From positions 124,001-188,000 of the forward strand of contig CANNFD010000003.1 in NCBI GenBank assembly GCA_947503885.1: DNA of 64,000 nucleotides, in the 5' to 3' direction. The notes beneath the pieces were generated by a model that was given only the letters and a program-made list of their open reading frames with translations, did not search any database and was not told where the DNA came from. Below, piece by piece: positions 20,197 to 43,502 of this stretch (position 1 is the stretch's first letter; the number at the start of each line of letters is the position of its first letter). The stretch is from an uncultured Olleya sp. (GTDB taxonomy: Bacteria > Bacteroidota > Bacteroidia > Flavobacteriales > Flavobacteriaceae). Made by a program: the position numbers and the translations under genes.

Positions 20197-20232
20197 AAAA
20201 AGGGCGTCATAATATTATGATGCCCTTTTTTT
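20195..20232. terminator. Bidirectional rho-independent terminator
   Basis: A long inverted repeat with AAAGGGC and GCCCTTT arms flanked by A and T runs has only one G-T wobble in its stem. It lies between the plus-strand WbpB-like gene and the convergent CapK-like gene, and overlaps the last codon of the latter. Confidence 0.93.
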
Positions 20233-21529
20233 ATTCTTTAATAATAAATTTATGCTTGTTATTAGATTTTATAAAAACATCGGTATAAATAAAATCGATT
20301 TTTAAATCATTACTCACATTAGAGGTTAAAGATTCTTTAATAAAATCTTCTTGATTAGGACTGTAATCTTTTCCTTTTAAAATTCTAATTTCTAAACTTT
20401 GATCTTTCTTCTGTATTATTTGATATTTAATAGCGTCAATTTTACCCATTAAAACCGTAAGTACAGGACTACCAATTGTTTTATTATTAATTGTAATAAA
20501 ATCTGTAGTTCTACCCCTTAAATCTATTAATTTTTTACGGGAACCGTTATTGCCTAATATTTGAGAGCCATTATCTCCAGTATCATAGCGTATAAATGGA
20601 AATGCGTAATTATATAATGAAGTCGCAATTATTTTACCATTGGTATTAAAAACGTTTTCTTCATTACTAACTATCTCTAAAATACTTCTCTCAGTATCTA
20701 TTATAAATACTTCTTTTTCTCCAGTTTCATAAGCAGAAACCCCACCATCATTTAAACCATAATTATTATAAACCTTGGTGTCAAAAGCAGTTTCAATAAG
20801 TTGTCTTTGTGATGGTAATAACATTTCAGCAGTTGAGAATACAGACTGAAAATTTATTTTTTTATTATTATCAACACAATATTTTGCAAATAAACTTAAC
20901 GAGCTAGCATATCCTCTAAAAAACTTAGGATTCCATTTTTTTAAAATTTGGTAATATGTTTCTAGATCTTGATCATTTACACCATAAGAAGAAAACTTTT
21001 TATAATTTAAAATAGTATTATTAATCTTAGTTGATAAGCTAGTTTTGTTCTTAACAAGCGATCCTCCGGCTAGAACACCAATTTTGTCTCCAGGATTATA
21101 ACCGCCTTGGTTTAACCCTCTATATAGTAGCGCTACACCCTTAGAGTAGTCTTCAATATTCATTCTATATTTTAGAGGCTCACCTGTTGAGCCACCTGTT
21201 GCCCCAACAACAAATTTCTCGTTATAGTTTCTAGGAATAAAATCAGAATAGTTAGCAAGTATTATCTCTTTATCTAAAAGAGGGATTTTTTTTAAATCAG
21301 ATAACGATTTAAAATCTGAAACTTGAAGTTTAAGTTTATTAAATAATTTATCATAATAAGGTACATTCTTTTTACAAAACACGAATAGTTTATGAAAAGC
21401 TTCAAGTTGCTCTTGCTCTAATAAATCTATTGACTTATCAAATCCATGTTTAAATTTATTATAGTAATTTAAATCATTTCTATTTTTAATTTTATAAGAC
21501 AAGTCAATAAGTAGAGATGTATTTTTCAT
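20231..21529 (-). CDS. CapK-like adenylate-forming protein (phenylacetate-CoA ligase family), copy 1
   Basis: The 432-residue protein is in the CapK/PaaK branch of adenylate-forming enzymes often found in capsule loci. Motifs seen are the phosphate-binding VGATGGSTGEPLKYR near residue 108, NNYGLNDGGVSAYE in the middle and PFIRYDTGDNG further on, then LRGRTTDFITI. Such proteins are presumed to activate an acyl group for attachment to the glycan, but no substrate is established. Its stop overlaps the terminator. Its start touches the stop of the flippase gene (one shared base), so the two form a minus-strand pair embedded in a plus-strand locus. A second paralogue lies at 42195. Confidence 0.85.
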   Translation of the reverse strand: MKNTSLLIDLSYKIKNRNDLNYYNKFKHGFDKSIDLLEQEQLEAFHKLFVFCKKNVPYYDKLFNKLKLQVSDFKSLSDLKKIPLLDKEIILANYSDFIPRNYNEKFVVGATGGSTGEPLKYRMNIEDYSKGVALLYRGLNQGGYNPGDKIGVLAGGSLVKNKTSLSTKINNTILNYKKFSSYGVNDQDLETYYQILKKWNPKFFRGYASSLSLFAKYCVDNNKKINFQSVFSTAEMLLPSQRQLIETAFDTKVYNNYGLNDGGVSAYETGEKEVFIIDTERSILEIVSNEENVFNTNGKIIATSLYNYAFPFIRYDTGDNGSQILGNNGSRKKLIDLRGRTTDFITINNKTIGSPVLTVLMGKIDAIKYQIIQKKDQSLEIRILKGKDYSPNQEDFIKESLTSNVSNDLKIDFIYTDVFIKSNNKHKFIIKE

Positions 21530-25426: not shown

Positions 25427-26533
25427 ATGAAAAACAAAATAAAAGTTTGTCATCTTACATCAGCTCATAATAGGGACGATGTTAGAATTTTTAAAAAAGA
25501 ATGTACTTCAATTAAAAAAGCAGGGTATGATACCAGTTTAATTGTTGCTGACGGTTTAGGAGATGATGTTGTAGAAGGAATAAACATTTATGACGTTGGA
25601 AAATTAAATGGTAGGTTTAATAGGTTTACTAAAACAACAGCTAATGTCTATAAAAAAGCAATTAAAGTTAACGCTGACTTATATCATTTTCATGACTCAG
25701 ACTTAATGCCAACAGGATTAAAACTTATCAAAAAAGGCAAAAAAGTTATATATGATGTACATGAAGATTTGCCGGGTCAAATTCTAGCTAAACCATATAT
25801 AAAATCATATTTAAGAAAACCAATATCTATAGGTTTAAAAATAATCGAAAATTATTGCTCAAAAAAATATACTTATATTGTTACTGCAACACCACATATA
25901 AAAACAATTTTTGATAAAAGAAATAAAGCAATAGATATTAATAATTACCCGTTTTCAAACGAATTAAACTCGGATAATGTAGATTATTTTAGTAAGCCAA
26001 ACGAAGTTTGTTTTACAGGAGCAATATCAGAAATTAGAGGATTAAGAGAAGTCGTTAAAGGGATTAAAAACTTAGATACAAAGTTAAATTTAGCAGGAAA
26101 ATTTCAACAAAATTACTTTAGAGAACAACTTATAAAAACTGAAGGTTGGAAAAATGTTAACGAACTAGGTTTAGTATCAAGAGAAGAAGTAAAAACTATT
26201 TTATCAAAATCAAGAGTAGGTATTGTAACTTTTTTGCCAAGCCCAAACCATACTTATTCTCAACCCAATAAACTTTTTGAATACATGTCCGCAGGTATTC
26301 CGGTAGTAGCCTCTAATTTTGAATTATGGAAAAGAATCGTAGAAGATTATGATTGTGGGATTTGTGTTAATCCAGAATCTCCTCAAGAAATTGAAAATGC
26401 AATAAAAAAACTTATTGACAATCCTGAATTAGCCAAAAAAATGGGAGAAAACGGAAGACAAGCTGTAAAAGCTAAGTTTAACTGGGCATCAGAAGAAGAA
26501 AAACTAATACGTTTATACGAAGAAATATTATGA
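25427..26533 (+). CDS. GT4-family glycosyltransferase (WbpH-like)
   Basis: The 368-residue GT-B enzyme begins KVCHLTSAHNRDDVRIFKKE and has VIYDVHEDLPGQILAKPYI, IRGLREVVKGI, and the donor-binding C-terminal region QPNKLFEYMSAGIPVVASNFELW. The opening LTSAHNRDDVRIF and VHEDLP motifs are those of the GT4 subgroup around WbpH, which by literature adds diacetamido-uronic acids in Pseudomonas O-antigens. The gene overlaps the WbpI-like epimerase by four bases (ATGA), which fits a partnership between epimerase product and transferase donor. The sugar transferred remains inference. Confidence 0.87.
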   Translation: MKNKIKVCHLTSAHNRDDVRIFKKECTSIKKAGYDTSLIVADGLGDDVVEGINIYDVGKLNGRFNRFTKTTANVYKKAIKVNADLYHFHDSDLMPTGLKLIKKGKKVIYDVHEDLPGQILAKPYIKSYLRKPISIGLKIIENYCSKKYTYIVTATPHIKTIFDKRNKAIDINNYPFSNELNSDNVDYFSKPNEVCFTGAISEIRGLREVVKGIKNLDTKLNLAGKFQQNYFREQLIKTEGWKNVNELGLVSREEVKTILSKSRVGIVTFLPSPNHTYSQPNKLFEYMSAGIPVVASNFELWKRIVEDYDCGICVNPESPQEIENAIKKLIDNPELAKKMGENGRQAVKAKFNWASEEEKLIRLYEEIL

Positions 26534-27618
26534 AAATAGTAACGGTAATTGGCGCAAGACCACAGTTTGTAAAAGCAGCAATAGTAAGTAAAGCTATTGA
26601 TGATCATAACAACAACTCTGAGAATAAAGTAGAAGAATTAATAGTACATACAGGTCAGCATTTTGATGAAAATATGAGTAAAATATTTTTTGATCAAATG
26701 AAGATTAGAAAACCAGATTATAACCTTGAGATACACAGTCTAACTCATGGCGCTATGACAGGTCTTATGATGACTAAAATTGAAGAAATATTATTAAAAG
26801 AAAAACCAGACTGGTTACTAGTTTATGGCGATACAAACTCAACTTTAGCAGGCGCTTTAGCAGCAAAAAAACTACACATCAAAGTGGCGCATGTAGAAGC
26901 TGGATTAAGATCTTTTAATAATAAAATGCCAGAAGAAATTAATAGGATTCTAACAGATAGAATTAGCGATATATTATTTTGCCCAACACAAAAAGCAGTT
27001 GACAATTTACAAAAAGAAGGCTACGCTAACATCGATACCAAAATTGAGTTACCAGGAGATGTAATGAAGGATGCAGCAATGCATTACAAACAGTTTGCCG
27101 AAAAACCAGAAAATATAAACTTACCAGATAATTTTATTCTATCTACTATACACAGAGCAGAAAATACAGATAACTTAGATAATTTAAAAGCAATATTTAA
27201 TGCTTTAAATAACATTGGTAATGAAATGCCAATAGTTATACCATTACATCCTAGAACAAGTAAAATATTAGAAAAAAATAGAATAGAATTAGGTAAAAAC
27301 ATTATTTGTATTGATCCTGTTGGTTATTTGCAAATGGTTTATTTACTAGATAAATGCAAGTTGGTAATGACAGATAGTGGAGGCTTACAAAAAGAAGCTT
27401 ACTTCTTTAAAAAACCATGCATTACACTTAGGGAAGAGACAGAGTGGGTAGAGCTTTTAGAGAACGGCTACAATACTATTGTTGGTAGTAACGAGGACAA
27501 AATTTTAGCTTGTTTTGAGACTATTAAACAAAATAACTTTAAATTAGTAGAAAAGGAAGAGCTTTATGGCAATGGTAAATCCAGTAATAGAATTTTAGAA
27601 AGTTTAATTAAATTTTAA
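26530..27618 (+). CDS. Non-hydrolysing UDP-sugar 2-epimerase (WbpI/WecB family)
   Basis: The 362-residue GT-B-fold epimerase starts KIVTVIGARPQFVKAAIVS and has HTGQHFDENMS, VYGDTNSTLAG, HVEAGLRSFNNKMPEEINR, HRAENTDN and TDSGGLQKEAYF. WecB proteins usually read GTRPEAIK at the start. The GARPQF(I/V)KA form with PEEINRILTD is closer to WbpI, which makes UDP-ManNAc(3NAc)A. Together with the WbpA, WbpD and WbpB-like genes at 17-20 kb this supports a ManNAc3NAcA-type sugar. A plain UDP-GlcNAc 2-epimerase remains possible. It overlaps the upstream glycosyltransferase gene by four bases. Confidence 0.9.
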   Translation: MKIVTVIGARPQFVKAAIVSKAIDDHNNNSENKVEELIVHTGQHFDENMSKIFFDQMKIRKPDYNLEIHSLTHGAMTGLMMTKIEEILLKEKPDWLLVYGDTNSTLAGALAAKKLHIKVAHVEAGLRSFNNKMPEEINRILTDRISDILFCPTQKAVDNLQKEGYANIDTKIELPGDVMKDAAMHYKQFAEKPENINLPDNFILSTIHRAENTDNLDNLKAIFNALNNIGNEMPIVIPLHPRTSKILEKNRIELGKNIICIDPVGYLQMVYLLDKCKLVMTDSGGLQKEAYFFKKPCITLREETEWVELLENGYNTIVGSNEDKILACFETIKQNNFKLVEKEELYGNGKSSNRILESLIKF

Positions 27619-27812: not shown

Positions 27813-28571
27813 CTATTTGTTAAGCAAAGCAACCTCTTCATTTGTTAAAGCTCTATTGTATATTTTAAGATTGTCATAAACACCTGGCGTATTAGTTTTA
27901 TTATCTAAAGATCTTCCAATTAACATATCAGTTTTATAAACATCTAATTTACCATCAGTAATAGTTCTAGCATTTTCTAATTTTCCATTAATAAAAAATT
28001 GCATTCTTTCTCCATCATAAGTACCAGTTAGATTGTACCAAGTATCCGGAGACCAAATGTCTTTTTTTGTACTTAGTTGTACATATTCACCATTAATAGA
28101 AAGTGCAAACTTAAAAGTCCCTTTAACTTTAGGGCTTGGATACTCGTTACCAGTAACTCCAAATAGATATTGAACAAAAGGAGCACCATCTGTATCACTA
28201 GGTTTTAACACAATAGGATCATTACCGCTACCTTTAAAAGAGATAGGCTTATACCATATAGAAACCGTAATACCTTTTTTAGGATTAATATTATCATGGT
28301 TTTCAACTTTTACAGACTCGCTTAAGCCATCCATTGATAATGCTTTTTTAGCCATACCTAAACGGTTAGTAGTGTATGTACCAGTTACAAAATCATAATC
28401 ACCCTCTTTTCTAACACCATCAAAACTTGATTCGTAAAGCAAACCATCAATATCAATTTTTACTTCTTTAACCTCTGGGTTTGGGGTCTTAACAACTTCT
28501 TTTTTGTCTTCATTTTTACAAGAAAATAAAACTAAAACGGAAAGGGTAATTAAATAAAATTTTGAATTCAT
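27813..28571 (-). CDS. LamG / concanavalin A-like domain lipoprotein
   Basis: The 252-residue protein has a lipoprotein signal with the cysteine at residue 18 (VLFSCKN). After a charged linker, a LamG/jellyroll domain fills residues 45-250. Typical features are LSMDGLSESVKVENHDNINP, ITVSIWYKP, WYNLTGTYDGERMQFFINGK and a final YDNLKIYNRALTNEEVALL. Such domains bind carbohydrate or act as spacer modules; no catalytic domain is present. It would be anchored in the outer membrane or exported. It is a single minus-strand gene inside the plus-strand polysaccharide locus and diverges from the PIG-L gene. Its place here may reflect later insertion. Confidence 0.85.
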   Translation of the reverse strand: MNSKFYLITLSVLVLFSCKNEDKKEVVKTPNPEVKEVKIDIDGLLYESSFDGVRKEGDYDFVTGTYTTNRLGMAKKALSMDGLSESVKVENHDNINPKKGITVSIWYKPISFKGSGNDPIVLKPSDTDGAPFVQYLFGVTGNEYPSPKVKGTFKFALSINGEYVQLSTKKDIWSPDTWYNLTGTYDGERMQFFINGKLENARTITDGKLDVYKTDMLIGRSLDNKTNTPGVYDNLKIYNRALTNEEVALLNK

Positions 28572-28587
28572 TTTGATTTGTTTTTAG

Positions 28588-28621
28588 CAAAGGTAATAAA
28601 TAATTAATTTAACGTTGTAAA
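28588..28621 (-). promoter_or_regulatory. Promoter candidate for the LamG lipoprotein
   Basis: On the minus strand TACCTTTG (28588-28595) matches TAnnTTTG, with TTTA at 28618-28621 as a near -33 element and a 22-base spacer. The box ends 17 bases before the ATG. Confidence 0.42.
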
Positions 28622-28643
28622 GCTATAATCCCAAGATAAATTC

Positions 28644-28651
28644 TATTTTTG
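28644..28651 (+). promoter_or_regulatory. -7 box candidate for the PIG-L operon
   Basis: TATTTTTG matches TAnnTTTG and lies nine bases before the ATG at 28661. Its position argues against the alternative TTG at 28649 as the start codon, because that TTG is part of the box. Confidence 0.35.
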
Positions 28652-28660
28652 TTAAAAAAA

Positions 28661-29290
28661 ATGATTTCAAGTTTTAAGAATGTCTTAGTTTTAGCACCTC
28701 ACACAGATGATGGTGAGTTGGGTGCTGGTGGCACAATAAGCAAACTTATTCAAAATGGCACAAAGGTGACTTATGTTGCTTTTTCTACAGCAGAAGAATC
28801 TGTTCCTGAGGGACTTCCAAAAGATATTTTAAAAACAGAAGTTAAAGAGGCAACAAAAAGATTAGGAATACAAAACTTAATTATATATAATTATCAAGTT
28901 CGAAAACTTAACTACAAAAGACAAGAGATTCTTGAAAATTTAATAGATTTAAAAAAGGCAAATAATTTTGATTTGGTTTTACTTCCTAGCCTAAAAGACA
29001 TCCATCAAGACCATAGTACTATAGCTCAAGAAGGCGTTAGAGCTTTTAAAGGGATAACTATACTGGGCTATGAGTTAATTTGGAATAATTTGTCCTTTGA
29101 TACACAATGTTTTATTAAATTAAACGAAGAGCATATTCAAAAAAAGGTGCATGCTTTACAGTCTTATGAAAGTCAAGGGTTTAGAGATTATTTGTCTGAG
29201 GATTTTATTTTTTCGTTAGCAAAAGCTAGAGGGGTTCAAATAGGTGCTAAATATGCAGAAGCATTTGAAGTCATAAGATTAATACTATAA
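28661..29290 (+). CDS. PIG-L/LmbE-family sugar N-deacetylase
   Basis: From the ATG at 28661 the protein has 209 residues. It starts with a beta strand leading to APHTDDGELGAGG, where H14, D16 and D17 form the zinc-binding H-x-D-D motif of the PIG-L/LmbE family (usually HPDD). The third ligand is in LPSLKDIHQDHSTIA. The family removes acetyl groups from GlcNAc-containing substrates such as GlcNAc-PI, mycothiol precursors and some nucleotide sugars. It leads a tight operon with an LpxD-like acyltransferase (10 bases on) and a MaoC-like hydratase. This suggests that the freed amine is re-acylated, discussed in the findings. A longer form starting at TTG 28649 is less likely. Confidence 0.88.
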   Translation: MISSFKNVLVLAPHTDDGELGAGGTISKLIQNGTKVTYVAFSTAEESVPEGLPKDILKTEVKEATKRLGIQNLIIYNYQVRKLNYKRQEILENLIDLKKANNFDLVLLPSLKDIHQDHSTIAQEGVRAFKGITILGYELIWNNLSFDTQCFIKLNEEHIQKKVHALQSYESQGFRDYLSEDFIFSLAKARGVQIGAKYAEAFEVIRLIL

Positions 29291-29300
29291 ATAATAAAAA

Positions 29301-30278
29301 ATGCTTTATTCAAATAATTTCAAATTTAATTCAAAACAGCTATCCTCTGTTTTTAATGAGGATCAAATAATAAATTTTGAAGACTTTGATTTACTAATGT
29401 TTTCTTCATTTAAAAACCTAAATGATAATGCTATTTATTTTATAAAGGAGTTAAATAAAAATTCATTAGATTTAATAGATAAGGTAAAACAGTCAGTAAT
29501 TATTGTTCCAGAAGATTATACTTTTAAAAACAACTCAAATATTATTATTAAATCTAAAAAGCCAAGATTAGATTTCGCTAAATTATCAAATTATATTTAT
29601 AAAAACTGTAGCGATAAGCATGATAATAAAAAATATAAAACAGATAAAAATCATATAACAATAGCCTCTACAGCTATAGTATCAAATAAGGCTACAATCT
29701 ACCCTAATGTTTATATTGGACCAAACTGTGTAATAGAAGATGGGGTAACAATTTTTCCTAATGTAACAATTTTAGGAAATGTTATTATTAAAAAAAATAG
29801 TGAGATTGGTTCAAATTCAACAATTGGAAATCAAGGGTTTGGAGGAGAACGTGATAATGATGGTAAAATCTATATGATACCACATTTAGGAGGAGTTATA
29901 ATAGAACAAAATGTTAGAATAGGCTCTAATAACACAATCGTTTCTGGAACCATCAATCCAACTATTGTTGGAGAGCAAACAAAGTTTGACGACCATATAC
30001 ATTTTGCACACAATTGCAAAACAGGTAAATCATGTTTTGTAACAGCTTGTGCACAGTTTAGTGGTAGTATTACACTAGGAGATAGAGTTTGGATTGGGCC
30101 AAATGCTTCATTAATACAGGGGATTACAATCGGAGATGATAGTACTGTAGGTATCGGAGCAGTAGTTACAAAAAGCGTTAATAAAAATTTAATTGTTACA
30201 GGGAATCCTGCTACAGAATTAAATGAGTTTATTAAAAATCGTAAAATCTTAAAAAGAATTGTAAATGAAAATAATTAA
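29301..30278 (+). CDS. LpxD-like N-acyltransferase (left-handed beta-helix)
   Basis: The 325-residue protein copies the architecture of LpxD. An N-terminal alpha/beta domain ends with KSKKPRLDFAKLSNYIY (84-100), equivalent to the N-P-R-x-x-F-A motif. A hexapeptide helix follows from about 118 to 300, then a short helical C-terminus. The LpxD active-site block is recognisable: GFGGERDNDGKIYMIPHLGG (179-198), and the catalytic-type histidine H237 in HFAHNC. LpxD adds an (R)-3-hydroxyacyl group to the 2-amino group of UDP-acylglucosamine in lipid A synthesis. This copy is divergent and sits in a polysaccharide locus between a deacetylase and a hydratase, so its substrate is probably a surface sugar. 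Its end overlaps the hydratase start by 14 bases. Confidence 0.85.
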   Translation: MLYSNNFKFNSKQLSSVFNEDQIINFEDFDLLMFSSFKNLNDNAIYFIKELNKNSLDLIDKVKQSVIIVPEDYTFKNNSNIIIKSKKPRLDFAKLSNYIYKNCSDKHDNKKYKTDKNHITIASTAIVSNKATIYPNVYIGPNCVIEDGVTIFPNVTILGNVIIKKNSEIGSNSTIGNQGFGGERDNDGKIYMIPHLGGVIIEQNVRIGSNNTIVSGTINPTIVGEQTKFDDHIHFAHNCKTGKSCFVTACAQFSGSITLGDRVWIGPNASLIQGITIGDDSTVGIGAVVTKSVNKNLIVTGNPATELNEFIKNRKILKRIVNENN

Positions 30279-30663
30279 TATTAATGATTCAGCTTCTTTT
30301 TCAAAGACTATTACAGAGCATGATATTTTAACATTTGCTGGGATAACTGGCGATTTTAATGATATTCATATTAATAAGCTAGCAGCAGAAAAATCTATAT
30401 TTAAAGAAAGAATTGCTCATGGTATGCTAACAGCAAGTTTTATATCTACAGTAATAGGTATGTTTCTGCCTGGTAGAGGAAGTATTTATTTAGAGCAGAA
30501 CTTGAAATTTTTAAAACCCGTTACTATAGGAGAAACCATAAAAGCCGAAGTAATTGTTGAAGACATTAATAAGAAAAAAGGAGTGTATACACTTAAGACA
30601 ATAGTTACAAACCAATTTGGAGCGCTTGTTATTGATGGTTCTGCAAAGATATTATATAGATAA
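30265..30663 (+). CDS. MaoC/PhaJ-like (R)-specific enoyl-CoA hydratase
   Basis: The 132-residue hot-dog protein has the hydratase-2 motif ITGDFNDIHINKLAAEKS. D30 and H35 match the catalytic Asp/His pair of PhaJ, and IAHGMLTASFIS follows. Length is that of single-domain PhaJ/MaoC enzymes, which hydrate trans-2-enoyl-CoA to (R)-3-hydroxyacyl-CoA. The ATG overlaps the LpxD-like gene by 14 bases. The stop overlaps the next glycosyltransferase start by one base. In this setting it may make the hydroxyacyl donor for the LpxD-like enzyme, or act as a dehydratase on another substrate. The first reading is inference from gene order. Confidence 0.88.
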   Translation: MKIININDSASFSKTITEHDILTFAGITGDFNDIHINKLAAEKSIFKERIAHGMLTASFISTVIGMFLPGRGSIYLEQNLKFLKPVTIGETIKAEVIVEDINKKKGVYTLKTIVTNQFGALVIDGSAKILYR

Positions 30664-31889
30664 TGACAAAAAACAAATCTATTTGGTTAATAAATCAATA
30701 CTTAACTACTCCAGAATTAAATGGAGAAGGACATAGACATTCATATTTAGCTCAAGAGTGGATTGATAAGGGCTATGACGTGACACTAATTACATCATCT
30801 TACTCGCATATAGGTAATAGGCATAACTCATTTAAAGGGTTATTTAGTGTCCAAAATGATAATATTAGAACATTATTAATTAAAGGAAATGTATACAAGG
30901 ATACAAATGGATTTTTAAGGATTTTAAGTTGGTTAATTTTTTCATTTCTTCTTTTTTTTATACCAACTAAAAAGCTTCCAAAACCTGATATTATAATAGT
31001 GTCTTCAATCTCTTTATTACCAATATTAAATGTGGTATATTATTTTAAGAAGAAATTTAAAAACGCGAAGTTTATTTTAGAAATCAGAGACATTTGGCCT
31101 TTATCACTAATTGAAATAGGAGGATTTTCCCCAAAAAACTTATTTATAAAATTTTTGTCTTGGGTAGAAAAATTAGGATATAAAAAAGCAGAACACATTG
31201 TATCCCTTTTAATGGATACAAATCAACACATAAAGGAAGTACTTGGTAATAATAACTTTAAATATACTTGGATTTCTAATGGATACAACCTTGAAGATCC
31301 ATCTTACTATCAACCTATTGCTGCAGACGTTGTTAATAAAATACCAAAAGATAAATTTATCGTTGGATACACAGGCGCATTAGGTATTGCAAATAGTATG
31401 GAGACTGCTATTGAGGCATTTAATAGCCTTAAAACGGAAGATGTTACCTTATGTATACTAGGTAATGGTAATGAAAAAGATAACTTAATTAAAAGAGCCA
31501 AAAACAACCCTAATATAATTTTCTTTGATGCGGTAAATAAAAATCAAGTACAATCGTTTTTGAGTAATTGTGATTTACTTTTTTTTAGTTCTAAAAACTT
31601 AGATATTTATAGATTTGGGATATCAGCAAATAAGACTTTCGAATACATGTATTCTGGTAAACCAATTATTTTGTCAGCACCTACTAGAAATAATGTTATC
31701 GAAAAAGCTAATTGTGGTAGTGTGATACCAGCAGAAAACACAGAAGCTTTAATCAATGAGATTTTAAAATATAAAGCTATGGACCCAATTAAAAGACTAG
31801 AAATGGGGCAAAATGGTAAGGCTTATTTGATTGAAAATATTACTTATAAAACTCTAGCTCAAAAATATATAAATATTTTTCAAGAATAA
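30663..31889 (+). CDS. WbuB-like GT4 glycosyltransferase
   Basis: The 408-residue GT-B enzyme begins IWLINQYLTTPELNGEGHRH and has LEIRDIWPLSLIEIGGF, where the D-x-W-P-L-S motif is typical of WbuB and related fucosaminyltransferases. The C-terminal half carries VGYTGALGIANSMETAIEAF, ILGNGNEKDNLIK and FGISANKTFEYMYSGKPIIL. In many gram-negative loci WbuB-like enzymes precede a small PglC-type initiating transferase, as here with one membrane protein between. It probably adds the second sugar on the primed lipid carrier. Which amino sugar it uses cannot be told. Confidence 0.88.
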   Translation: MTKNKSIWLINQYLTTPELNGEGHRHSYLAQEWIDKGYDVTLITSSYSHIGNRHNSFKGLFSVQNDNIRTLLIKGNVYKDTNGFLRILSWLIFSFLLFFIPTKKLPKPDIIIVSSISLLPILNVVYYFKKKFKNAKFILEIRDIWPLSLIEIGGFSPKNLFIKFLSWVEKLGYKKAEHIVSLLMDTNQHIKEVLGNNNFKYTWISNGYNLEDPSYYQPIAADVVNKIPKDKFIVGYTGALGIANSMETAIEAFNSLKTEDVTLCILGNGNEKDNLIKRAKNNPNIIFFDAVNKNQVQSFLSNCDLLFFSSKNLDIYRFGISANKTFEYMYSGKPIILSAPTRNNVIEKANCGSVIPAENTEALINEILKYKAMDPIKRLEMGQNGKAYLIENITYKTLAQKYINIFQE

Positions 31890-31890
31890 G

Positions 31891-33093
31891 ATGATTAAAA
31901 ACAAAGCGAAGTTGTTAAACTCAACCGTCCTAGTCTGGTTGATACTTGCACTTTTTCTAGTAGAATTTATTGCAACGCTATTGTTACAATTTGGTGAACC
32001 ATCTAAAACCAGGTTAGTTGGTGTATATAAGTTTTTTTTTCAGGTTGTAATTCTTTTATCTATAGATTATAAAAACTTAAATAAAAAAATTCTTTATTTA
32101 TTTATCACGTTAACACTTATATTTAGTTTAAATCAATTACTAAACCCAATATTTAATAAGGATTTTAATTGGTTATTTTTAAAGGGCAGTATCTATTATT
32201 ATGATAGATATATTTATGTAATATTATTTGCATTAATGATTTACTCTAGGCAGGATAGTGACCGTATAATTAACAAAACACTAAAAATAGCCGAGTATAT
32301 ATTGGTTGCTAATTTGGCTTTAATTATAATAGGTTTGTTGTTTAAAATAGATTTTTTTAAATCCTACCCTAGATCTATTAGATTTGGCTATGACGGATTA
32401 TTTAATAAAGTAAACGAGGTAACTTTTATTTACAGTATTTACCTAATCTATCTATATTATAAAAGCTTCATTATAAAGTCTAGAAAATGGATATTTTTTA
32501 TTATTGTATCTATTATTAGTCTGTTGATAGGTACTAAAGTAATGTTGTTATTTCTAGCTTTATTATTTGTATTTCATTTTGTAGTAGTGTACAAAAAAAA
32601 TAAAGGCTTAAAAGTAATTGCGATAGGTCTAATTTTAGGGTTTATTATCTTTTTTCAAAAAATCACCTATTTTGTTTTAGAGCTGTTTCCTTTTTGGAAT
32701 AAATTAAAAGAAGAATATGGATTAATGACACTTTTATTATCAAAGCGTGATTTCTTATTTTATCAATCCATAGACTATATGTCTGCCAATTGGAGATTTA
32801 TTAACTATTTTATTGGAGGCGCTTTTTATTCTAATTCTTTTGCAATATCTCAAATGGATGGCCCAGATTTGTTTTTGTTTTTTGGGGGAATAGGCACACT
32901 AGTTTATTTGTCCCTATTTGTAGTAATTTTCATGAAGAAAAATAATATAATCATCAATGGGTTAATTTTAATTATATTAATATGTGGATTACTTGGAGGG
33001 GCTTTATTAATGAGTCCTTTGTCTATGGTACTTTTGTTTATAGTATCCTATAGTTTAAATAAAATGCATAAATTTGAATATAATATAAAATAA
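31891..33093 (+). CDS. Polytopic membrane protein, probable O-unit polymerase
   Basis: The 400-residue protein has about ten membrane spans. A central loop [20 protein letters not shown] is followed by [14 protein letters not shown], a layout common in Wzy/EpsG-type polymerases, where conserved arginines sit in periplasmic loops. There is no clear family motif. It lies within one or two bases of its neighbours: the WbuB-like transferase ends just before it and the PglC-like gene overlaps its stop by one base. The position between a transferase and the initiating enzyme supports a polymerase role for the glycan primed by that enzyme. Confidence 0.6.
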
Positions 33094-33698
33094 TGTACAA
33101 ATCATTTTTTAAATCTTTTATAGATTTTTTTACAGCGCTGATAGGTTTTGTACTAATTAGTCCCGTATTTTTAATCGTTTTAATACTATTATTTATTAAT
33201 AATAATGGTAAGCCTTTTTTCTTTCAAAAAAGACCAGGTAAAAACGGTAAAATATTTAATGTCATTAAGTTTAAAACTATGACAGACAAAATGGATAAAG
33301 AAGGCAACTTATTGCCAGACTCAGAAAGATTGACAAATACTGGTAAATTTGTTAGAAAAACATCGCTAGATGAGCTACCACAACTAATTAATGTTTTAAA
33401 AGGAGACATGAGTTTGATAGGACCAAGACCTTTATTACCAGAATACTTAGATTTATATACACCAACCCAAAGCAAAAGACATGATGTTAAACCAGGAATT
33501 ACAGGTTGGGCTCAGGTTAATGGTCGGAATGCTATTAGTTGGAATAAAAAATTTGAATTAGACGTGTGGTATGTAGAAAATATTAGTTTTAAATTAGATA
33601 TTCAAATTTTATTTAAAACGGTATCAAAAGTTATTAAGTCAGAAGGGATAAATGCTATTGATGCAGTCACTACTGAAAAATTTACAGGATCAAACTAA
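33093..33698 (+). CDS. PglC-like initiating phosphoglycosyl transferase
   Basis: The 201-residue protein is a minimal monotopic phosphoglycosyl transferase. It has one N-terminal re-entrant hydrophobic helix (about 6-33), then [41 protein letters not shown] with the catalytic Asp-Glu pair, [12 protein letters not shown] and [14 protein letters not shown]. It transfers a sugar-1-phosphate from a UDP-sugar to undecaprenyl phosphate at the cytoplasmic face of the inner membrane. The adjacent PglD- and PglE-like genes, and the PglF-like gene at 35535, make UDP-di-N-acetylbacillosamine its most likely substrate. Confidence 0.92.
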
Positions 33699-34309
33699 TG
33701 GTATATTTATACGGAGCAAGTGGACATGCTAAGGTAGTAACAGACGTTGTGCTTTCTAATAAAGCTAATGTTATTTCTGGCGTTTTTGATGATAACACTT
33801 CAATTAATAAGTTTAATAATTTACCTTTTTTTGGAAGTTTTGAGCCTTCAAAAATTGATAAACTTAGCAAACTTATTATCTGTATTGGAGATAATTTAAT
33901 AAGAAAAAATATCTCAGATAAATTAATAAATATTAATTTTTTAACTGCATTACATGCTACTTCTGTAGTTTCAAAAAACTCAAGTATTAAACAAGGGACT
34001 GTTGTAATGGCAAATGCTGTTGTTAATTCTGGTGCAACTATTGGCCAACATTGTATTTTAAATACAGCCTCTATAATTGAGCATGATTGTATAATAGAAG
34101 ATTTTGTACATGTATCACCAAATGCAACATTAACTGGAGGTGTAAAAATTGGGGAAGGGACACACATTGGAGCAGGAGCTATTATAATTCCAAATATTAC
34201 CATAGGTAAGTGGTGTAAAATCGGCGCTGGTACTGTTGTTTTAAAAAACATCCCTGACAACTCTGTTGTTGTTGGTAACCCTGGAAAAATAATTAAAAAA
34301 ATTTTTTAA
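33698..34309 (+). CDS. PglD-like UDP-4-amino-sugar N-acetyltransferase
   Basis: The 203-residue protein has a short N-terminal Rossmann-like domain (VYLYGASGHAKVVTDVV) and a C-terminal left-handed beta-helix. H129 in IIEHDC matches the general-base histidine of PglD. The pattern HVSPNATLTGGVKIGEGTHI and the final VVGNPGKIIKK are typical of the PglD/NeuD family. It should acetylate the 4-amino group of UDP-4-amino-4,6-dideoxy-GlcNAc with acetyl-CoA, giving UDP-diNAcBac. The start overlaps the PglC-like stop, and the PglE-like gene follows after one base. Confidence 0.92.
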   Translation: MVYLYGASGHAKVVTDVVLSNKANVISGVFDDNTSINKFNNLPFFGSFEPSKIDKLSKLIICIGDNLIRKNISDKLININFLTALHATSVVSKNSSIKQGTVVMANAVVNSGATIGQHCILNTASIIEHDCIIEDFVHVSPNATLTGGVKIGEGTHIGAGAIIIPNITIGKWCKIGAGTVVLKNIPDNSVVVGNPGKIIKKIF

Positions 34310-34310
34310 A

Positions 34311-35438
34311 ATGAACACAAAAATATGGCTATCCTCACCTCACATGGGAGGAACAGAGCAAAATTATATAAAAGAAGCTTTTGATGCCAATTGGATTGCA
34401 CCATTAGGACCTAATGTTAACGGTTTTGAAAAAGACTTAGAGACCTATTTAGGACAAGATAAAAAAGTAGCTTGTTTATCTTCTGGTACAGCAGCAATAC
34501 ACTTAGCATTAGTACAATTAGGGGTTGCTTTAAATGATGAGGTAATCTGTCAAACCTTTACATTTTGTGGCTCGTCTAACCCAATTGCTTATCAAGGAGC
34601 AATACCTGTTTTTGTGGATAGTGAACCAGAAACTTGGAACATGTGTCCAAAACATCTAGAAACCGCTATTAAAGATAGGATTGCTAAAGGTAAAACACCT
34701 AAAGCCATTATTATAGTACATCTTTACGGGATGCCTTCAAAAATAGACGAACTATTAGAAGTCGCATCAAAATATAAAATACCTGTTATTGAAGACGCTG
34801 CAGAAGCATTAGGATCTACCTATAAAGGAAGACAATGCGGTACATTTGGAGCCTTTTCTATCTTGTCGTTTAACGGAAATAAAATAATAACAACATCAGG
34901 AGGTGGCGCAATGGTTTGCAATACCATTGAAGATAAAAATCAAACCGTTTTTTACGCAACTCAAGCTAGAGACAATGCACCACATTATGAGCATTCTAAA
35001 ATAGGATATAATTATAGAATGAGTAATATCAGTGCTGGTATTGGTAGAGGACAAATGGAAGTCCTAGATAAGCATATTGGTCTAAGAAGAGACATGAATA
35101 CCTTTTATGTCAATTTATTTAAAGACATTAAAGGTGTCCAAGTCCAAAAACAACCCAACCCTGATTTTTATTCAAACTTTTGGCTTAGTTGTATTTTAAT
35201 TAATGAAGATGCTCCTTTTACTAAAGCACAATTTCAAGAAGCGATGGATGCTGCAAATATTGAAACCCGACCTTTATGGAAACCTATGCATATGCAACCT
35301 ATTTTTAAAGACGCATTATATTTTGGAGATAATTTAAGCGAAGTTTTGTTTAAAAAAGGATTATGTCTACCAAGCGGTTCTAATTTGGTTAAAGAGGATT
35401 TAGACAGAATTACTAAAGTTGTCAAGGGGCTACTATAG
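34311..35438 (+). CDS. PglE-like UDP-4-keto-sugar aminotransferase (DegT/DnrJ family)
   Basis: The 375-residue PLP enzyme begins KIWLSSPHMGGTEQNYI, close to the SPPHMGG start of PglE. It has CLSSGTAAIHLAL, VIEDAAEALGS, and the PLP lysine K191 in SFNGNKIITTSGGGA. NYRMSNISAGIGRGQMEVL and ETRPLWKPMHMQPIF are further family marks. It transfers an amino group from glutamate to the 4-keto sugar made by the PglF-like enzyme. It is the only sugar aminotransferase in the window, although the WbpB/WbpD-like genes would also need one acting at C3. The downstream gap of 96 bases separates it from the PglF-like gene. Confidence 0.93.
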   Translation: MNTKIWLSSPHMGGTEQNYIKEAFDANWIAPLGPNVNGFEKDLETYLGQDKKVACLSSGTAAIHLALVQLGVALNDEVICQTFTFCGSSNPIAYQGAIPVFVDSEPETWNMCPKHLETAIKDRIAKGKTPKAIIIVHLYGMPSKIDELLEVASKYKIPVIEDAAEALGSTYKGRQCGTFGAFSILSFNGNKIITTSGGGAMVCNTIEDKNQTVFYATQARDNAPHYEHSKIGYNYRMSNISAGIGRGQMEVLDKHIGLRRDMNTFYVNLFKDIKGVQVQKQPNPDFYSNFWLSCILINEDAPFTKAQFQEAMDAANIETRPLWKPMHMQPIFKDALYFGDNLSEVLFKKGLCLPSGSNLVKEDLDRITKVVKGLL

Positions 35439-35474
35439 CAGCTCTTTAGGCCCTTTTAAATAAGGCTTTAAGTA

Positions 35475-35482
35475 TATTTTTG
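35475..35482 (+). promoter_or_regulatory. -7 box candidate before the PglF-like gene
   Basis: TATTTTTG matches TAnnTTTG in the 96-base spacer between the PglE- and PglF-like genes, 52 bases before the ATG. No TTTG is found at the ideal -33 distance. Confidence 0.35.
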
Positions 35483-35534
35483 GTATATTGTCATTATATT
35501 TTAAGATATTTGTTAACTTTTATTAAAGATCCAA

Positions 35535-37496
35535 ATGCTTAAACAACTAAAACAAGCCTTATTTCAAGTTTTAGAGTCTAGTCAAAAAAAATTAGATTTT
35601 AAAAATATTAATTACCTACCAAGGTGGGCTATATTGTGTTTTGACAGCTCAATACTACTAATATCTTTATTCTTTACTAAAGTTATTGTTAGTAAAATTC
35701 AAAAAGCAGCATTTTTTAGTTTAGGTTTTTCTTCAGACGAGCTTATTATTGTCTTAATTAATGTGTTGTTTTTTATTTTATTTAGGACTTATGCAGGTTT
35801 AATAAGACACTCTACATTTATAGATGCAGCAAAATTCTTTTTAGCTTCTGTAGCAACATTACTTACTGCTTTAGCGGTATATTATGGTTACCTTTTTTTA
35901 ATAGGAGACGAGTTGTTTTCTATTCCACAACTGTTTATTTATTCCATAGTTTCTTTCTGTGGTCTATTCCTTTTTAGAGTACTTGTAAAGCAAGTTTTTG
36001 AAGTATATCAAAGATATAATGATGCAGAGTCTAGATTAAATGTTTTAGTATATGGTACAGGAGAAAATGCAATAGCAATTGCAAGCGCTTTAAAATCAGA
36101 GAACCCTTCAAGATATAAGATACTGGGTTTTATAGACAAGGATGGTAAAAATAAAAGTAAAGAGATTTTAGGACTGCCAATTATATTTTTAGAACGGAAA
36201 ACAGCTGTTTTACTTAGGATTTATAATGCACAAGCCTTAATTATTGCAGATAATACTCTAACAAAGGAAGAGCATATTAAAATTGTAGATAGTTGCTTAG
36301 AGCATAATTATAAAGTCTTTAGAGCACCTTTATTATCTGATATCGAAAAAAACACAAACCTATCTAATCAAATTCAAAAGATTCAAATTGAAGATATATT
36401 AGAAAGAGACCCTATAAAACTAGACAATAAATTGGTTGCTAAAGAGGTGTTTAATAAATGTATAATTGTTACTGGTGGAGCAGGTTCTATTGGAAGTGAG
36501 ATTGTTAGACAAGTTGCAAGTTATAAGCCTAAAAAACTATTAATTTTAGATCAAGCAGAGTCCCCTTTATATAATATTCAACTAGAAATTAAGCAGAGTT
36601 TTCCTGATTTAGATTTTGAAGCTGTAATAGCAGATGTAAGAAAATTAGAGGTACTAGAAGAGGTCTTTAAAACCCACAACCCTCAAGTAGTATATCATGC
36701 AGCAGCCTATAAGCATGTACCATTAATGGAAAAACATCCATCCGAAGCGATATTTGCTAATGTTTTAGGAACCAAAAATGTAGCAGACTTATCACACCGT
36801 TATAAGGCAGAAAAATTTGTAATGGTATCAACGGATAAAGCAGTAAACCCTAGTAATGTTATGGGGGCTTCAAAACGTATTGCAGAAATCTATGTACAAG
36901 CTTTACAAAATAAAGTTATTGCAGACAGTAAAAGTAAAACCCAATTTGTAACCACAAGATTTGGTAACGTGTTAGGTAGTAATGGATCTGTAGTACCATT
37001 ATTTAAACGCCAAATAGAAGAAGGTGGACCACTTACTATAACTCATCCAGATATTATCAGGTATTTTATGACTATTCCTGAAGCTTGTCAATTGGTACTA
37101 GAAGCTGGAGCAATGGGTAATGGAGGCGAAATCTTTATATTTGATATGGGCGAAGCTGTTAAAATCATCGATTTAGCTAAAAAAATAATTCGTTTAGCAG
37201 GTTTTACTCCATATAAAGATATTGATATAAAAGTGGTTGGTTTAAGACCAGGAGAAAAACTCTACGAAGAGTTGTTAAGCGACAAATCTACAACGCTACC
37301 AACTTATAATAGTAAAATAATGATAGCTAAAGTTGAAAACTGTACACACACAGAGATCAATAAAGACGTTCATGAGTTGATTGTCTTAGCTAAAGAGAAA
37401 GATAAAAACGCAATGGTCATAAAAATGAAAGCAATTGTTCCTGAATTTTTAAGCATGAACTCTGACTTTGAAATTTTTGACAAAAAAATAGTATAA
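35535..37496 (+). CDS. PglF/WbpM-like UDP-GlcNAc 4,6-dehydratase (membrane-bound)
   Basis: The 653-residue protein has four N-terminal membrane spans (about 33-52, 69-90, 100-124, 131-152). A CoA-binding-like Rossmann domain (LVYGTGENAIAIASAL) and a C-terminal SDR dehydratase domain follow. The latter holds TGGAGSIGS (313-321), HAAAYKHVPLMEKHP, and STDKAVNP (432-439). The catalytic tyrosine position is methionine (M443 in MGASKR, K447), as in PglF, WbpM and CapD. It makes UDP-4-keto-6-deoxy-GlcNAc, the entry to bacillosamine and related amino sugars. With the PglE-, PglD- and PglC-like genes just upstream the pathway is complete. Confidence 0.93.
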   Translation: MLKQLKQALFQVLESSQKKLDFKNINYLPRWAILCFDSSILLISLFFTKVIVSKIQKAAFFSLGFSSDELIIVLINVLFFILFRTYAGLIRHSTFIDAAKFFLASVATLLTALAVYYGYLFLIGDELFSIPQLFIYSIVSFCGLFLFRVLVKQVFEVYQRYNDAESRLNVLVYGTGENAIAIASALKSENPSRYKILGFIDKDGKNKSKEILGLPIIFLERKTAVLLRIYNAQALIIADNTLTKEEHIKIVDSCLEHNYKVFRAPLLSDIEKNTNLSNQIQKIQIEDILERDPIKLDNKLVAKEVFNKCIIVTGGAGSIGSEIVRQVASYKPKKLLILDQAESPLYNIQLEIKQSFPDLDFEAVIADVRKLEVLEEVFKTHNPQVVYHAAAYKHVPLMEKHPSEAIFANVLGTKNVADLSHRYKAEKFVMVSTDKAVNPSNVMGASKRIAEIYVQALQNKVIADSKSKTQFVTTRFGNVLGSNGSVVPLFKRQIEEGGPLTITHPDIIRYFMTIPEACQLVLEAGAMGNGGEIFIFDMGEAVKIIDLAKKIIRLAGFTPYKDIDIKVVGLRPGEKLYEELLSDKSTTLPTYNSKIMIAKVENCTHTEINKDVHELIVLAKEKDKNAMVIKMKAIVPEFLSMNSDFEIFDKKIV

Positions 37497-42194: not shown

Positions 42195-43502
42195 CTACAA
42201 TCCAGACCTAAACTGTTTTAGTTTACCACTAACTTCCCGTTCCAAAATAGTTTTCTGCTCAAAAATTAAATTTAAATTAGGTTCCAAATATTTGTCTACA
42301 GCTAATTGTACAGCCTTTTGCTGAGGTTGGCTTAACGCTTCGGTAGCAACATAATCAATTTTAAAGGTATCAATTTCAATTTGTTCGACTATAAACTCTT
42401 TTACATTCGCGTCTTTGGTCATGACGGTTTTAGTCACATAATAAAAGGTTAAACCTGCTGCAATTTTTCCGCTTGGAAGCGTAATAAAATCACTGGTACG
42501 TCCTGTTAGAGCGTCTAAAATTGGACGTTGTAATGTGCTTTTAGTGGACAACTGTCCTAAATCGCCAAGCTCATAACGTATAAAAGGGTGTGCACGATTA
42601 TATAAATCGGTGACCACAATTTTACCAGGTTGACCATAAGGGACTGGTTGGTTGTTATTGTCTAAAATTTCGACATATAAATGGTTGGTATTTACTATCC
42701 AATTGTCGTCTTGGTCCTCAAAAGCAATAAGCCCTAATTCGGCTGCGCCATATTCATTTACAACAGGAATATTAAATTGTGTTTCAAGCAGTTTTTTATC
42801 GTCTTCAAAAAGCATTTCAGAGGTGACAATACAAACAGTTAATGTGGGACAAATGTCTTTTAAAACAATATTTTTATGTTCTAAAAATTTAGCAAATTGC
42901 ACAATAGCACTAGTGTAACCGTTAATGTAATTAAATTTTGTACGTTTAAATTTATGTAATACTTTATTTAAAGCAGCATCACTTAAATCAAATACCGAAA
43001 ACCGAAAACGGTTACCTAACCAATCCTTTAATCGTTCTTTATAATATCCATTGGTATCTAACGGAATGCCATAAAAACGCGCTTGTTTAGAGGTGTTTAG
43101 ATCTATATTAAACCAACTATAGCGTTGCATAAAAGTGACCCAAGTCATGGCATGTGCAAAGTTATCTTTAGCAAACTCAAAAGGGGTTCCGGAAGATCCT
43201 GAGGTTTTATGCTTATGTACGGTTTTTAAAGTATACTTGTTGGATAATCTATTAGCTAAAGGTTGTTGCAAATTAGCTTTGGTTAACACAGGTAAGGCAC
43301 TCCAATCTTTGGTGTCAATCCCTTGACATAAGGTGTTGTAAAATGGTGTGTGCTCTAAATGAAACGTAACGATAGCTTGTAGTTGCTTACTTAGGTAGTT
43401 AGCATAATCAGTTTCGGTAAAATTATCAATAATAGCTTGAGTTTTCCTAGCTTCTTTAACAGGAAATCCTTTTAACCGCAATGACCATTCAAATCGTTTC
43501 AA
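42195..43502 (-). CDS. CapK-like adenylate-forming protein, copy 2
   Basis: The 435-residue protein is a paralogue of the CapK-like protein at 20231. It has KHKTSGSSGTPFEFAKDN as the phosphate-binding loop, VVNEYGAAELGLIAFED, HPFIRYELGDLG and LTGRTSDFITLPSGK. Adenylate-forming enzymes of this type are thought to activate a carboxylate for transfer to a glycan or lipid, but no product is established. It is on the minus strand at the right edge of the locus, converging with the receptor remnant and diverging from purD 113 bases away. Confidence 0.85.
   Translation of the reverse strand: MKRFEWSLRLKGFPVKEARKTQAIIDNFTETDYANYLSKQLQAIVTFHLEHTPFYNTLCQGIDTKDWSALPVLTKANLQQPLANRLSNKYTLKTVHKHKTSGSSGTPFEFAKDNFAHAMTWVTFMQRYSWFNIDLNTSKQARFYGIPLDTNGYYKERLKDWLGNRFRFSVFDLSDAALNKVLHKFKRTKFNYINGYTSAIVQFAKFLEHKNIVLKDICPTLTVCIVTSEMLFEDDKKLLETQFNIPVVNEYGAAELGLIAFEDQDDNWIVNTNHLYVEILDNNNQPVPYGQPGKIVVTDLYNRAHPFIRYELGDLGQLSTKSTLQRPILDALTGRTSDFITLPSGKIAAGLTFYYVTKTVMTKDANVKEFIVEQIEIDTFKIDYVATEALSQPQQKAVQLAVDKYLEPNLNLIFEQKTILEREVSGKLKQFRSGL

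Follow-up and report, generated by a model that had tools for sequence, protein, structure and literature searches.

The lipid A enzymes LpxC and LpxD pair a metal-dependent deacetylase with a left-handed beta-helix N-acyltransferase that carries a catalytic His and a 3-hydroxyl-binding Asp. We analyzed a three-gene cassette that resembles this pair in each of these respects and encodes a PIG-L deacetylase, an LpxD-like N-acyltransferase and a MaoC hydratase. It is located in a 64,000-nucleotide stretch of DNA from an uncultured Olleya sp. of the Flavobacteriaceae (GenBank assembly GCA_947503885.1, contig CANNFD010000003.1, positions 124,001 to 188,000 of the forward strand), hereafter the window, to which coordinates refer unless another locus (L) is named. 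Unlike in the lipid A system, the deacetylase is of the PIG-L rather than the LpxC type, a hydratase gene lies alongside, and the cassette is part of a polysaccharide locus. The acyltransferase also differs from LpxD in scoring below the family cut-off, in lacking the NPKY motif and H276, and in its shortened C-terminal tail.

Surface-glycan sugars with N-(R)-3-hydroxybutanoyl (R3Hb) groups are known in association with FdhC/QdhC or Pse/Leg-type modules, and such amino sugars have been described with the FdhC/QdhC 3-hydroxybutanoyl transferases of the E. coli O103, Hafnia and Acinetobacter O-antigens (PMC4869667, PMC3726653, PMC9676051). GlcN(R3Hb) and Fuc3N(R3Hb), for example, are sugars of a Hafnia O-antigen (PMC4869667). 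In the FdhC/QdhC systems, however, the amine of Fuc3N or Qui3N is provided by the FdtAB or QdtAB route; the available portions of these papers name neither a PIG-L protein nor a hydratase, and for the GlcN(R3Hb) of Hafnia PCM1221 they infer only the transferase. The wfpC-wfpG genes of Flavobacterium psychrophilum offer another likeness: these strain-variable R-group (N-acyl) genes alter the antigenicity of lipopolysaccharide, and a dedicated acyl supply was predicted (PMC6519341). There, ketoacyl synthases and a reductase are predicted to build the acyl group on acyl carrier protein (ACP), and a PglD homologue to move it to Qui2NAc4N, whereas the available part of the paper names no deacetylase and no LpxD (PMC6519341).

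A deacetylase of the LmbE/PIG-L family also removes the acetyl group of GlcNAc before a long hydrocarbon chain is attached in the teicoplanin and A40926 systems (PMC4101496). The product of these systems is a glycopeptide antibiotic and not a polysaccharide. As for the hydratase, PhaJ of polyhydroxyalkanoate synthesis shares its fold family, its Asp/His dyad and its C4-C6 type pocket residues, but here the gene is found in a glycan locus with an LpxD-like partner instead of a polyhydroxyalkanoate synthase. To our knowledge, the teicoplanin/A40926 system includes neither an LpxD-like enzyme nor a hydratase.

The best reading of the cassette is that of a variant on these known N-acyl-sugar pathways. 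Considered as a whole, a scheme in which the PIG-L, MaoC and LpxD-like enzymes would edit the amide of one surface-polysaccharide amino sugar appears modestly probable. The combination of PIG-L, LpxD-like and hydratase genes seems to be new, as does the PIG-L/LpxD-like pair with an ACP and a ligase. A previous interpretation of this DNA (the sequence-only reading) knew of no description of the exact triad, and we likewise found none, nor any of a PIG-L/LpxD-like glycan pair, among the matches listed in the literature searched, whose coverage was incomplete and consisted mostly of titles and abstract openings.

Organization of the Cassette

The three genes form a tight run:

28661-29290, + strand: PIG-L gene, 209 aa counted from the ATG at 28661
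29301-30278, + strand: LpxD-like gene, 325 aa
30265-30663, + strand: MaoC gene, 132 aa

The PIG-L frame is also open from an alternative TTG start at 28649. Ten bases separate the PIG-L and LpxD-like genes, the LpxD-like and MaoC genes overlap by 14 bases, and the MaoC stop overlaps the start of the next glycosyltransferase gene (30663) by 1 base. This arrangement matches the sequence-only reading, whose catalytic assignments were also recovered: the HTDD motif of PIG-L (H14-D17), H237 within A-H-N of the LpxD-like protein, which aligns with H239 of E. coli LpxD, and D30/H35 of MaoC, which align with the PhaJ dyad. The family scores of all three proteins are far above chance.

The PIG-L protein scores 70.3 bits against PF02585 (cut-off 28.2). 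Its metal motif consists of H14-T-D16-D17 and H115-Q-D-H118, with the third ligand predicted, in keeping with the HXDD plus H metal motif of PIG-L/LmbE deacetylases (PMC4101496). Its best NCBIfam match is the BshB1 model TIGR04001, with 72.5 bits (below the cut-off of 182.5); a BshB1 (297 bits, over the cut-off) is encoded elsewhere in the genome.

Recurrence of the PIG-L/LpxD-like Pair

We searched for the PIG-L protein in 397 genomes of its own family (6 other matches, E ≤ 1e-12), in 375 genomes of the phylum (28 others, E ≤ 1e-14; one in common with the family search) and in 92 genomes of another family, f24, where 19 genomes gave 20 loci at E ≤ 1e-30, 10 of them new. This yielded a total of 43 other PIG-L loci, each viewed with ~1.5 kb on either side where the contig allows; 15 of the 26 longer loci were read gene by gene, and genes without a Pfam or NCBIfam match were labeled by eye. 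An LpxD-like gene adjoins PIG-L in 8 of the 33 loci of the family and phylum searches (genome G276 and seven of f24) and in 7/10 further f24 loci, a biased count, since the presence of the pair was the reason for searching f24. The pair is thus found in 15 of the 43 loci, in two families; a weaker beta-helix neighbor of PIG-L in L132, which scores 53.5 bits and resembles PglD more closely, was excluded. This adjacency supports the deacetylase/N-acyltransferase logic.

In 13 of the 15 loci, genes for an ACP-like protein and an AMP-binding ligase come after the pair, which suggests that the third slot is a donor-supply slot. In the domain check, one of the two ACPs scanned matched PF00550 (PP-binding; 24.8 bits) and the other had no match; one ligase matched PF00501. 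The four-gene block (PIG-L, LpxD-like, small ACP-like and AMP ligase genes) occurs in 13 genomes of f24 (L136-L138, L140, L142, L144, L177-L182 and L184), and its neighbors are polysaccharide-type genes in each of the six longer stretches viewed. Neither an ACP-like gene nor an AMP ligase was found beside the pair of genome G561.

Genome G276, which belongs to another genus, carries the LamG, PIG-L, GT4 and Wzy-like genes in the order of the window, with protein identities of 53%, 87%, 74% and 51%, respectively. At the DNA level, the window is 70.8% identical to G276 over 27832-29291 and 69.5% identical over 30670-33795. The stretch between, exactly the LpxD-like and MaoC genes, has no match to G276 at E ≤ 1e-3, and is replaced there by a single 300-residue LpxD-like gene (37% protein identity to that of the window) that overlaps the next glycosyltransferase gene. 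The acyltransferase and donor part is therefore a swappable sub-cassette. Frame shifts interrupt the PglC/PglD-like stretch that comes next in G276 (L051:6000-7300), so that this locus may be decaying. In the window, GC-content did not set the cassette apart (27-31%, relative to 25-35% for the other genes of the locus).

The LpxD-like N-Acyltransferase

The LpxD-like protein is of the left-handed beta-helix type, with a NeuD-like C-terminal end and a short tail. It scores under the curated cut-offs of TIGR01853 (188.8 bits; cut-off 242.5) and PRK00892 (185.3; cut-off 207), and its match to the NeuD family model TIGR03570 (103.4 bits; best stretch 199-304) is below cut-off as well. A single-sequence structure model gave a mean predicted local distance difference test score (pLDDT) of 38.2.

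To map its residues, we aligned the protein with E. coli LpxD and 28 LpxD-related family proteins. In E. coli numbering, the protein keeps H239 (as H237), G257 (G255), F183 (F180), D232 (D230) and F41 (F47). In E. coli LpxD, H239 is the base, D232 and Q236 bind the 3-hydroxyl of the donor, F41 and Y47 stack on the uracil, N44 and H276 contact the diphosphate, and Y47A has little effect (PMC6286764). The position of D232 is an Asp in 28/28 family proteins and in the G276 and G561 proteins and a Ser in 13/13 of the ACP-linked cousins, all of which keep the catalytic His. The enzyme of the window therefore appears suited to a 3-hydroxyacyl donor, and these cousins to another acid.

The C-terminal tail of LpxD contacts ACP (PMC6820557). 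After the column of E. coli P307, this tail counts 22 residues in the LpxD-like protein, 32 in E. coli LpxD, 35 in the genome's own LpxD and 20 in a member of a second LpxD-related group, which makes the short tail weak evidence on ACP versus coenzyme A (CoA). The weak point acknowledged by the sequence-only reading, namely that LpxD normally uses acyl-ACP, is thus eased only slightly.

In the phylogenetic tree, a 100/99 branch separates nine glycan-locus proteins and one further LpxD-like protein from 30 rows of the family, which comprise LpxD of the own type, the genome's second paralogue and the second group. Elsewhere in the genome, an LpxA-like match lies near a canonical LpxD (354 bits) and a second LpxD paralogue. 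No match to the LpxD-like protein was found in nine other genomes of the genus at E ≤ 1e-28, and the search of 299 family genomes returned mostly own LpxD-type proteins and a second conserved group; glycan context was not seen by eye around the ~335 aa proteins of six loci (L057-L062). A related-locus search with this protein returned only 4 distant beta-helix matches (26-29% identical).

The MaoC Hydratase

MaoC scores 83.9 bits against PF01575 (cut-off 27), has a PhaJ-type hot-dog fold and is the only PF01575 match of the genome at E ≤ 0.001. Its structure matches include 5cpg (E = 2.8e-26), which we take to be PhaJ1 of P. aeruginosa, and 1iq6 (E = 9.8e-24). Both chain-length positions (Leu65/Val130 in PhaJ, the published numbering being taken as the chain number minus one) are occupied by Ile, as in 5cpg. 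The role of these residues in PhaJ and the C4-C6 range of PhaJ1 have been reported (PMC4823750). By family and pocket residues, MaoC is predicted to be an (R)-specific enoyl-CoA hydratase with a C4-C6 type pocket.

Searching 397 family genomes (17 others, E ≤ 1e-10) and 394 phylum genomes (58 others, E ≤ 1e-15), we read 7 of the 17 family matches and, among the 58 phylum matches, 12 new ones and G157. Of the 21 longer MaoC loci, 7 were read gene by gene and 17 with 1.5 kb on either side; the remaining 4 were scanned only for matches to the three proteins. FdtA, PseI and similar names were assigned from sequence and position. Seven other glycan loci contain a PhaJ-type MaoC gene, which in G047, G678 and G087 is the immediate neighbor of a sugar N-acyltransferase-type gene. 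The five best matches in the family are all found in glycan loci: G300 (ketoacyl synthase III, KAS III, and a MaoC-reductase fusion, then a NeuB/PseI-type gene), G157 (MaoC-reductase fusion among glycosyltransferases), G047 (MaoC between FdtA- and FdtC-type genes, then a DegT aminotransferase), G087 (MaoC between a GNAT and the PseI-type gene of a Pse-type set) and G292 (MaoC beside polysaccharide genes). Two of the 12 weaker family matches were read and neither is in a glycan locus. The 12 new phylum loci include two glycan loci, G678 (RmlA, two FdtA-type, MaoC, FdtC-type and KAS III genes) and G484 (FdtA-type pair, KAS III, MaoC-reductase fusion, AMP ligase, GNAT and aminotransferase); L091 is not clear-cut. 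Fusions of MaoC with a short-chain dehydrogenase/reductase were seen in glycan loci at L081:9629-10804, L082:9017-10201 and L120:9245-10432, with KAS III and AMP ligase genes near the fusion in two of the three. These fusion sets are likely dedicated to making short hydroxyacyl groups.

Genomic Context of the Cassette

The neighboring features of the window are the following:

20231-21529, - strand: PaaK-like adenylate-forming ligase, ~7 kb upstream (NF045666 85.1 bits, below the cut-off of 300)
27813-28571, - strand: LamG-domain lipoprotein-like gene, divergent from the triad and kept beside PIG-L in G276
30663-31889, + strand: GT4 glycosyltransferase, its start overlapping the MaoC stop
31891-33093, + strand: Wzy-like membrane protein, named by position and hydrophobicity (no Pfam match)
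33093-37496, + strand: PglC/PglD/PglE/PglF-type genes (sugar-1-phosphate transferase, NeuD-family acetyltransferase, DegT aminotransferase and Polysacc_synt_2)
42195-43502, - strand: PaaK/CapK-like ligase-looking gene, labeled by eye (no Pfam match)

The PglC/D/E/F-type genes, glycosyltransferases and Wzy-like proteins around the triad indicate a surface-polysaccharide locus, in agreement with the sequence-only reading. The PglC-F-type genes would form a bacillosamine-type pathway, and their NeuD/PglD-family enzyme scores 215.5 bits against TIGR03570 (cut-off 160.8). The gene at 26530-27618 (+ strand) is presumably a WecB-type UDP-GlcNAc 2-epimerase, which might provide a second N-acetyl amino sugar; its 45% relative in G561 lies beside the LpxD-like gene. 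The PaaK-like ligase at 20231-21529 is a possible source of acyl-CoA, and four acyl-CoA dehydrogenase matches were found in the genome. The ligase-looking genes at 20231-21529 and 42195-43502, both PaaK/CapK-like, lie on either side of the glycan locus; the first scores under the curated cut-offs of its matches.

Proposed Mechanism and Alternative Explanations

In the scheme that we propose, PIG-L would remove the N-acetyl group of an N-acetyl amino sugar, either as a nucleotide sugar or as a lipid-linked intermediate. MaoC, judging from its family and pocket, would produce the (R)-3-hydroxyacyl-CoA by hydrating a short 2-enoyl-CoA, for which crotonyl-CoA is the likeliest candidate. The residues and the pairing of the LpxD-like enzyme suggest that it would acylate the freed amine with this short (R)-3-hydroxyacyl group, with His237 as the base and Asp230 on the 3-hydroxyl. 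The GT4 glycosyltransferase directly downstream, which is co-conserved in one other genome, may use or extend the re-acylated sugar. The acyl group moved would most likely be 3-hydroxybutyryl, an assignment that we make somewhat less confidently than the scheme itself. The candidates for the acceptor are several, since the window has WecB-type, PglF/E/D-type and dTDP-sugar-type genes, some of them labeled by eye. Relative to the sequence-only reading, the deacetylation and N-acylation logic gained support from the 15 pairs (with 10 of the 43 loci coming from the family selected for the pair), and the hydratase as donor supplier gained it less firmly, from the seven glycan loci with MaoC, the cassette swap and the kept 3-hydroxyl-binding Asp. 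The acceptor sugar and the acyl group remain predictions, and recurrence of the exact triad, the lack of which that reading had named as a refutation, gained no support in the genomes searched.

Several observations indeed weigh against our scheme. Neither the triad nor an LpxD-like/MaoC pair was met elsewhere in the genomes searched: MaoC occurs near PIG-L in 0/33 and 0/10 loci (at ≥ 40 and ≥ 20 bits, respectively) and in 0/26 longer stretches, and PIG-L or LpxD-like proteins of at least 40 bits occur in 0/21 longer MaoC loci (one of which, L081, has a 100-residue PIG-L frame). PIG-L relatives stand without an LpxD gene in 28 of the 43 loci. The commonest form of the pair carries an ACP, and the pairs of G276 and G561 have no local donor gene, so MaoC can be dispensed with. 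By eye, the most similar MaoC relatives (L086-L090, 46-50% identity) lie outside glycan loci, their neighbors being AMP-ligase-looking or other genes, so that this MaoC subfamily is not glycan-specific. A single clade of glycan-locus MaoC genes was not supported, as the tree label needs 4 changes; these genes nevertheless cluster beyond shuffles (mean of 7.2 changes; 3/500 shuffles as low). In the LpxD-like protein, the positions of N44, Y47 and H276 are changed to E50, S55 and G274 (among the 28 family proteins, F41 is found in 27, N44 in 23, Y47 in 25 and H276 in 28), that of Q236 is a His, and the D-R of T-I-D-R is V-S (family set: Asp 28/28, Arg 26/28). The protein sits on a long branch and its finer placement in the tree is unsure. 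Finally, the locus has its own NeuD/PglD-type acetyltransferase and aminotransferase, and the free amine need not come from PIG-L.

Part of this evidence fits an alternative in which the PIG-L/LpxD-like pair swaps the amide with a 3-hydroxyacyl-ACP of ordinary fatty acid synthesis, MaoC being a loosely related neighbor. E. coli LpxD is an enzyme specific for acyl-ACP (PMC6286764), and the ACP of the commonest pair form, the two pairs without MaoC and the absence of LpxD-like genes from the 21 other MaoC loci all agree with such a donor. We consider it unlikely, however, given that MaoC overlaps the LpxD-like gene and is missing together with it in G276, and that the only MaoC of the genome is the one in this locus, with PhaJ-type relatives in seven other glycan loci; the shortened tail of the LpxD-like protein adds a weak argument. 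It is also possible, but still less probable, that the enzymes act on different sugars, the LpxD-like protein acylating the 4-amino group of a PglE-type aminotransferase product while PIG-L frees another sugar that is left unacylated or otherwise modified. The PglF/PglE-type genes lie 4 kb downstream, a PglD homologue of F. psychrophilum is predicted to place the R-group on Qui2NAc4N (PMC6519341), and PIG-L genes without LpxD are found beside other modifying genes (formyltransferase-family, GNAT and, by eye, ATP-grasp and WbqC-like). The 4-amino group, however, already has its NeuD/PglD-family enzyme, and the direct adjacency of LpxD-like and PIG-L genes in two families argues against separate substrates. 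As a TIGR01853 relative with the catalytic His, the LpxD-like protein could be a spare lipid A enzyme located by chance in a glycan locus; this is very improbable for a protein under the curated cut-off, across the 100/99 branch from the LpxD and LpxD-paralogue rows, devoid of N44, Y47 and H276 and encoded in a polysaccharide locus. The assignment of PIG-L to bacillithiol synthesis, with the three genes unrelated, is more improbable still: BshB1 is its best NCBIfam match, yet far under the cut-off, and the pairing with LpxD-like genes is recurrent. Both of these last explanations were set aside, the genome having its 297-bit BshB1 and its canonical LpxD elsewhere.

Returning to the amide-editing scheme, we tentatively suggest a broader interpretation, in which one LpxD-fold branch departed from lipid A to form the re-acylating half of a mobile amide-editing module for surface polysaccharides. 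PIG-L would expose the amine, and interchangeable LpxD-like/donor sub-cassettes (a hydratase with acyl-CoA, an ACP with a ligase, or none) would acylate it anew, such that the N-acyl group and antigenicity would change while the glycosyltransferases stay untouched. If true, deacetylation and re-acylation chemistry of the lipid A type would have been reused for polysaccharides, and an antigenic change would be explained by a swap of one or two genes. The module would also give a genomic handle on the non-acetyl N-acyl groups of sugars that are not made by aminotransferases, such as GlcN(R3Hb), and Asp or Ser at one LpxD position should track 3-hydroxy versus other acyl donors.

Other Neighbors of PIG-L

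PIG-L relatives were observed next to a variety of other genes. The relative in G727 adjoins a GNAT-domain gene, and others adjoin ATP-grasp or WbqC-like genes (labels by eye). What we take to be WbqC-like genes lie near PIG-L in the glycan loci L132, L133, L135, L145, L148, L149 and L154; the WbqC-like gene of L052, the sole one scanned, had no NCBIfam match. Among 42 records of the plasmid collection with a PIG-L relative, the best match (Parabacteroides, 74%) is flanked by genes for a polysaccharide deacetylase and a glycosyltransferase. No LpxD-like gene is annotated next to it, which is a further point against our scheme. These varied neighbors imply that PIG-L alone does not indicate N-acylation, and fit a general amine-exposing enzyme with interchangeable decorators. 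The homologues in G079, G174 and G241 adjoin formyltransferase-family genes, which suggests deacetylate-then-formylate modules. Such PIG-L and formyltransferase-family genes were located in glycan loci at L054:3289-4931, L055:8187-9810 and L056:8937-10507.

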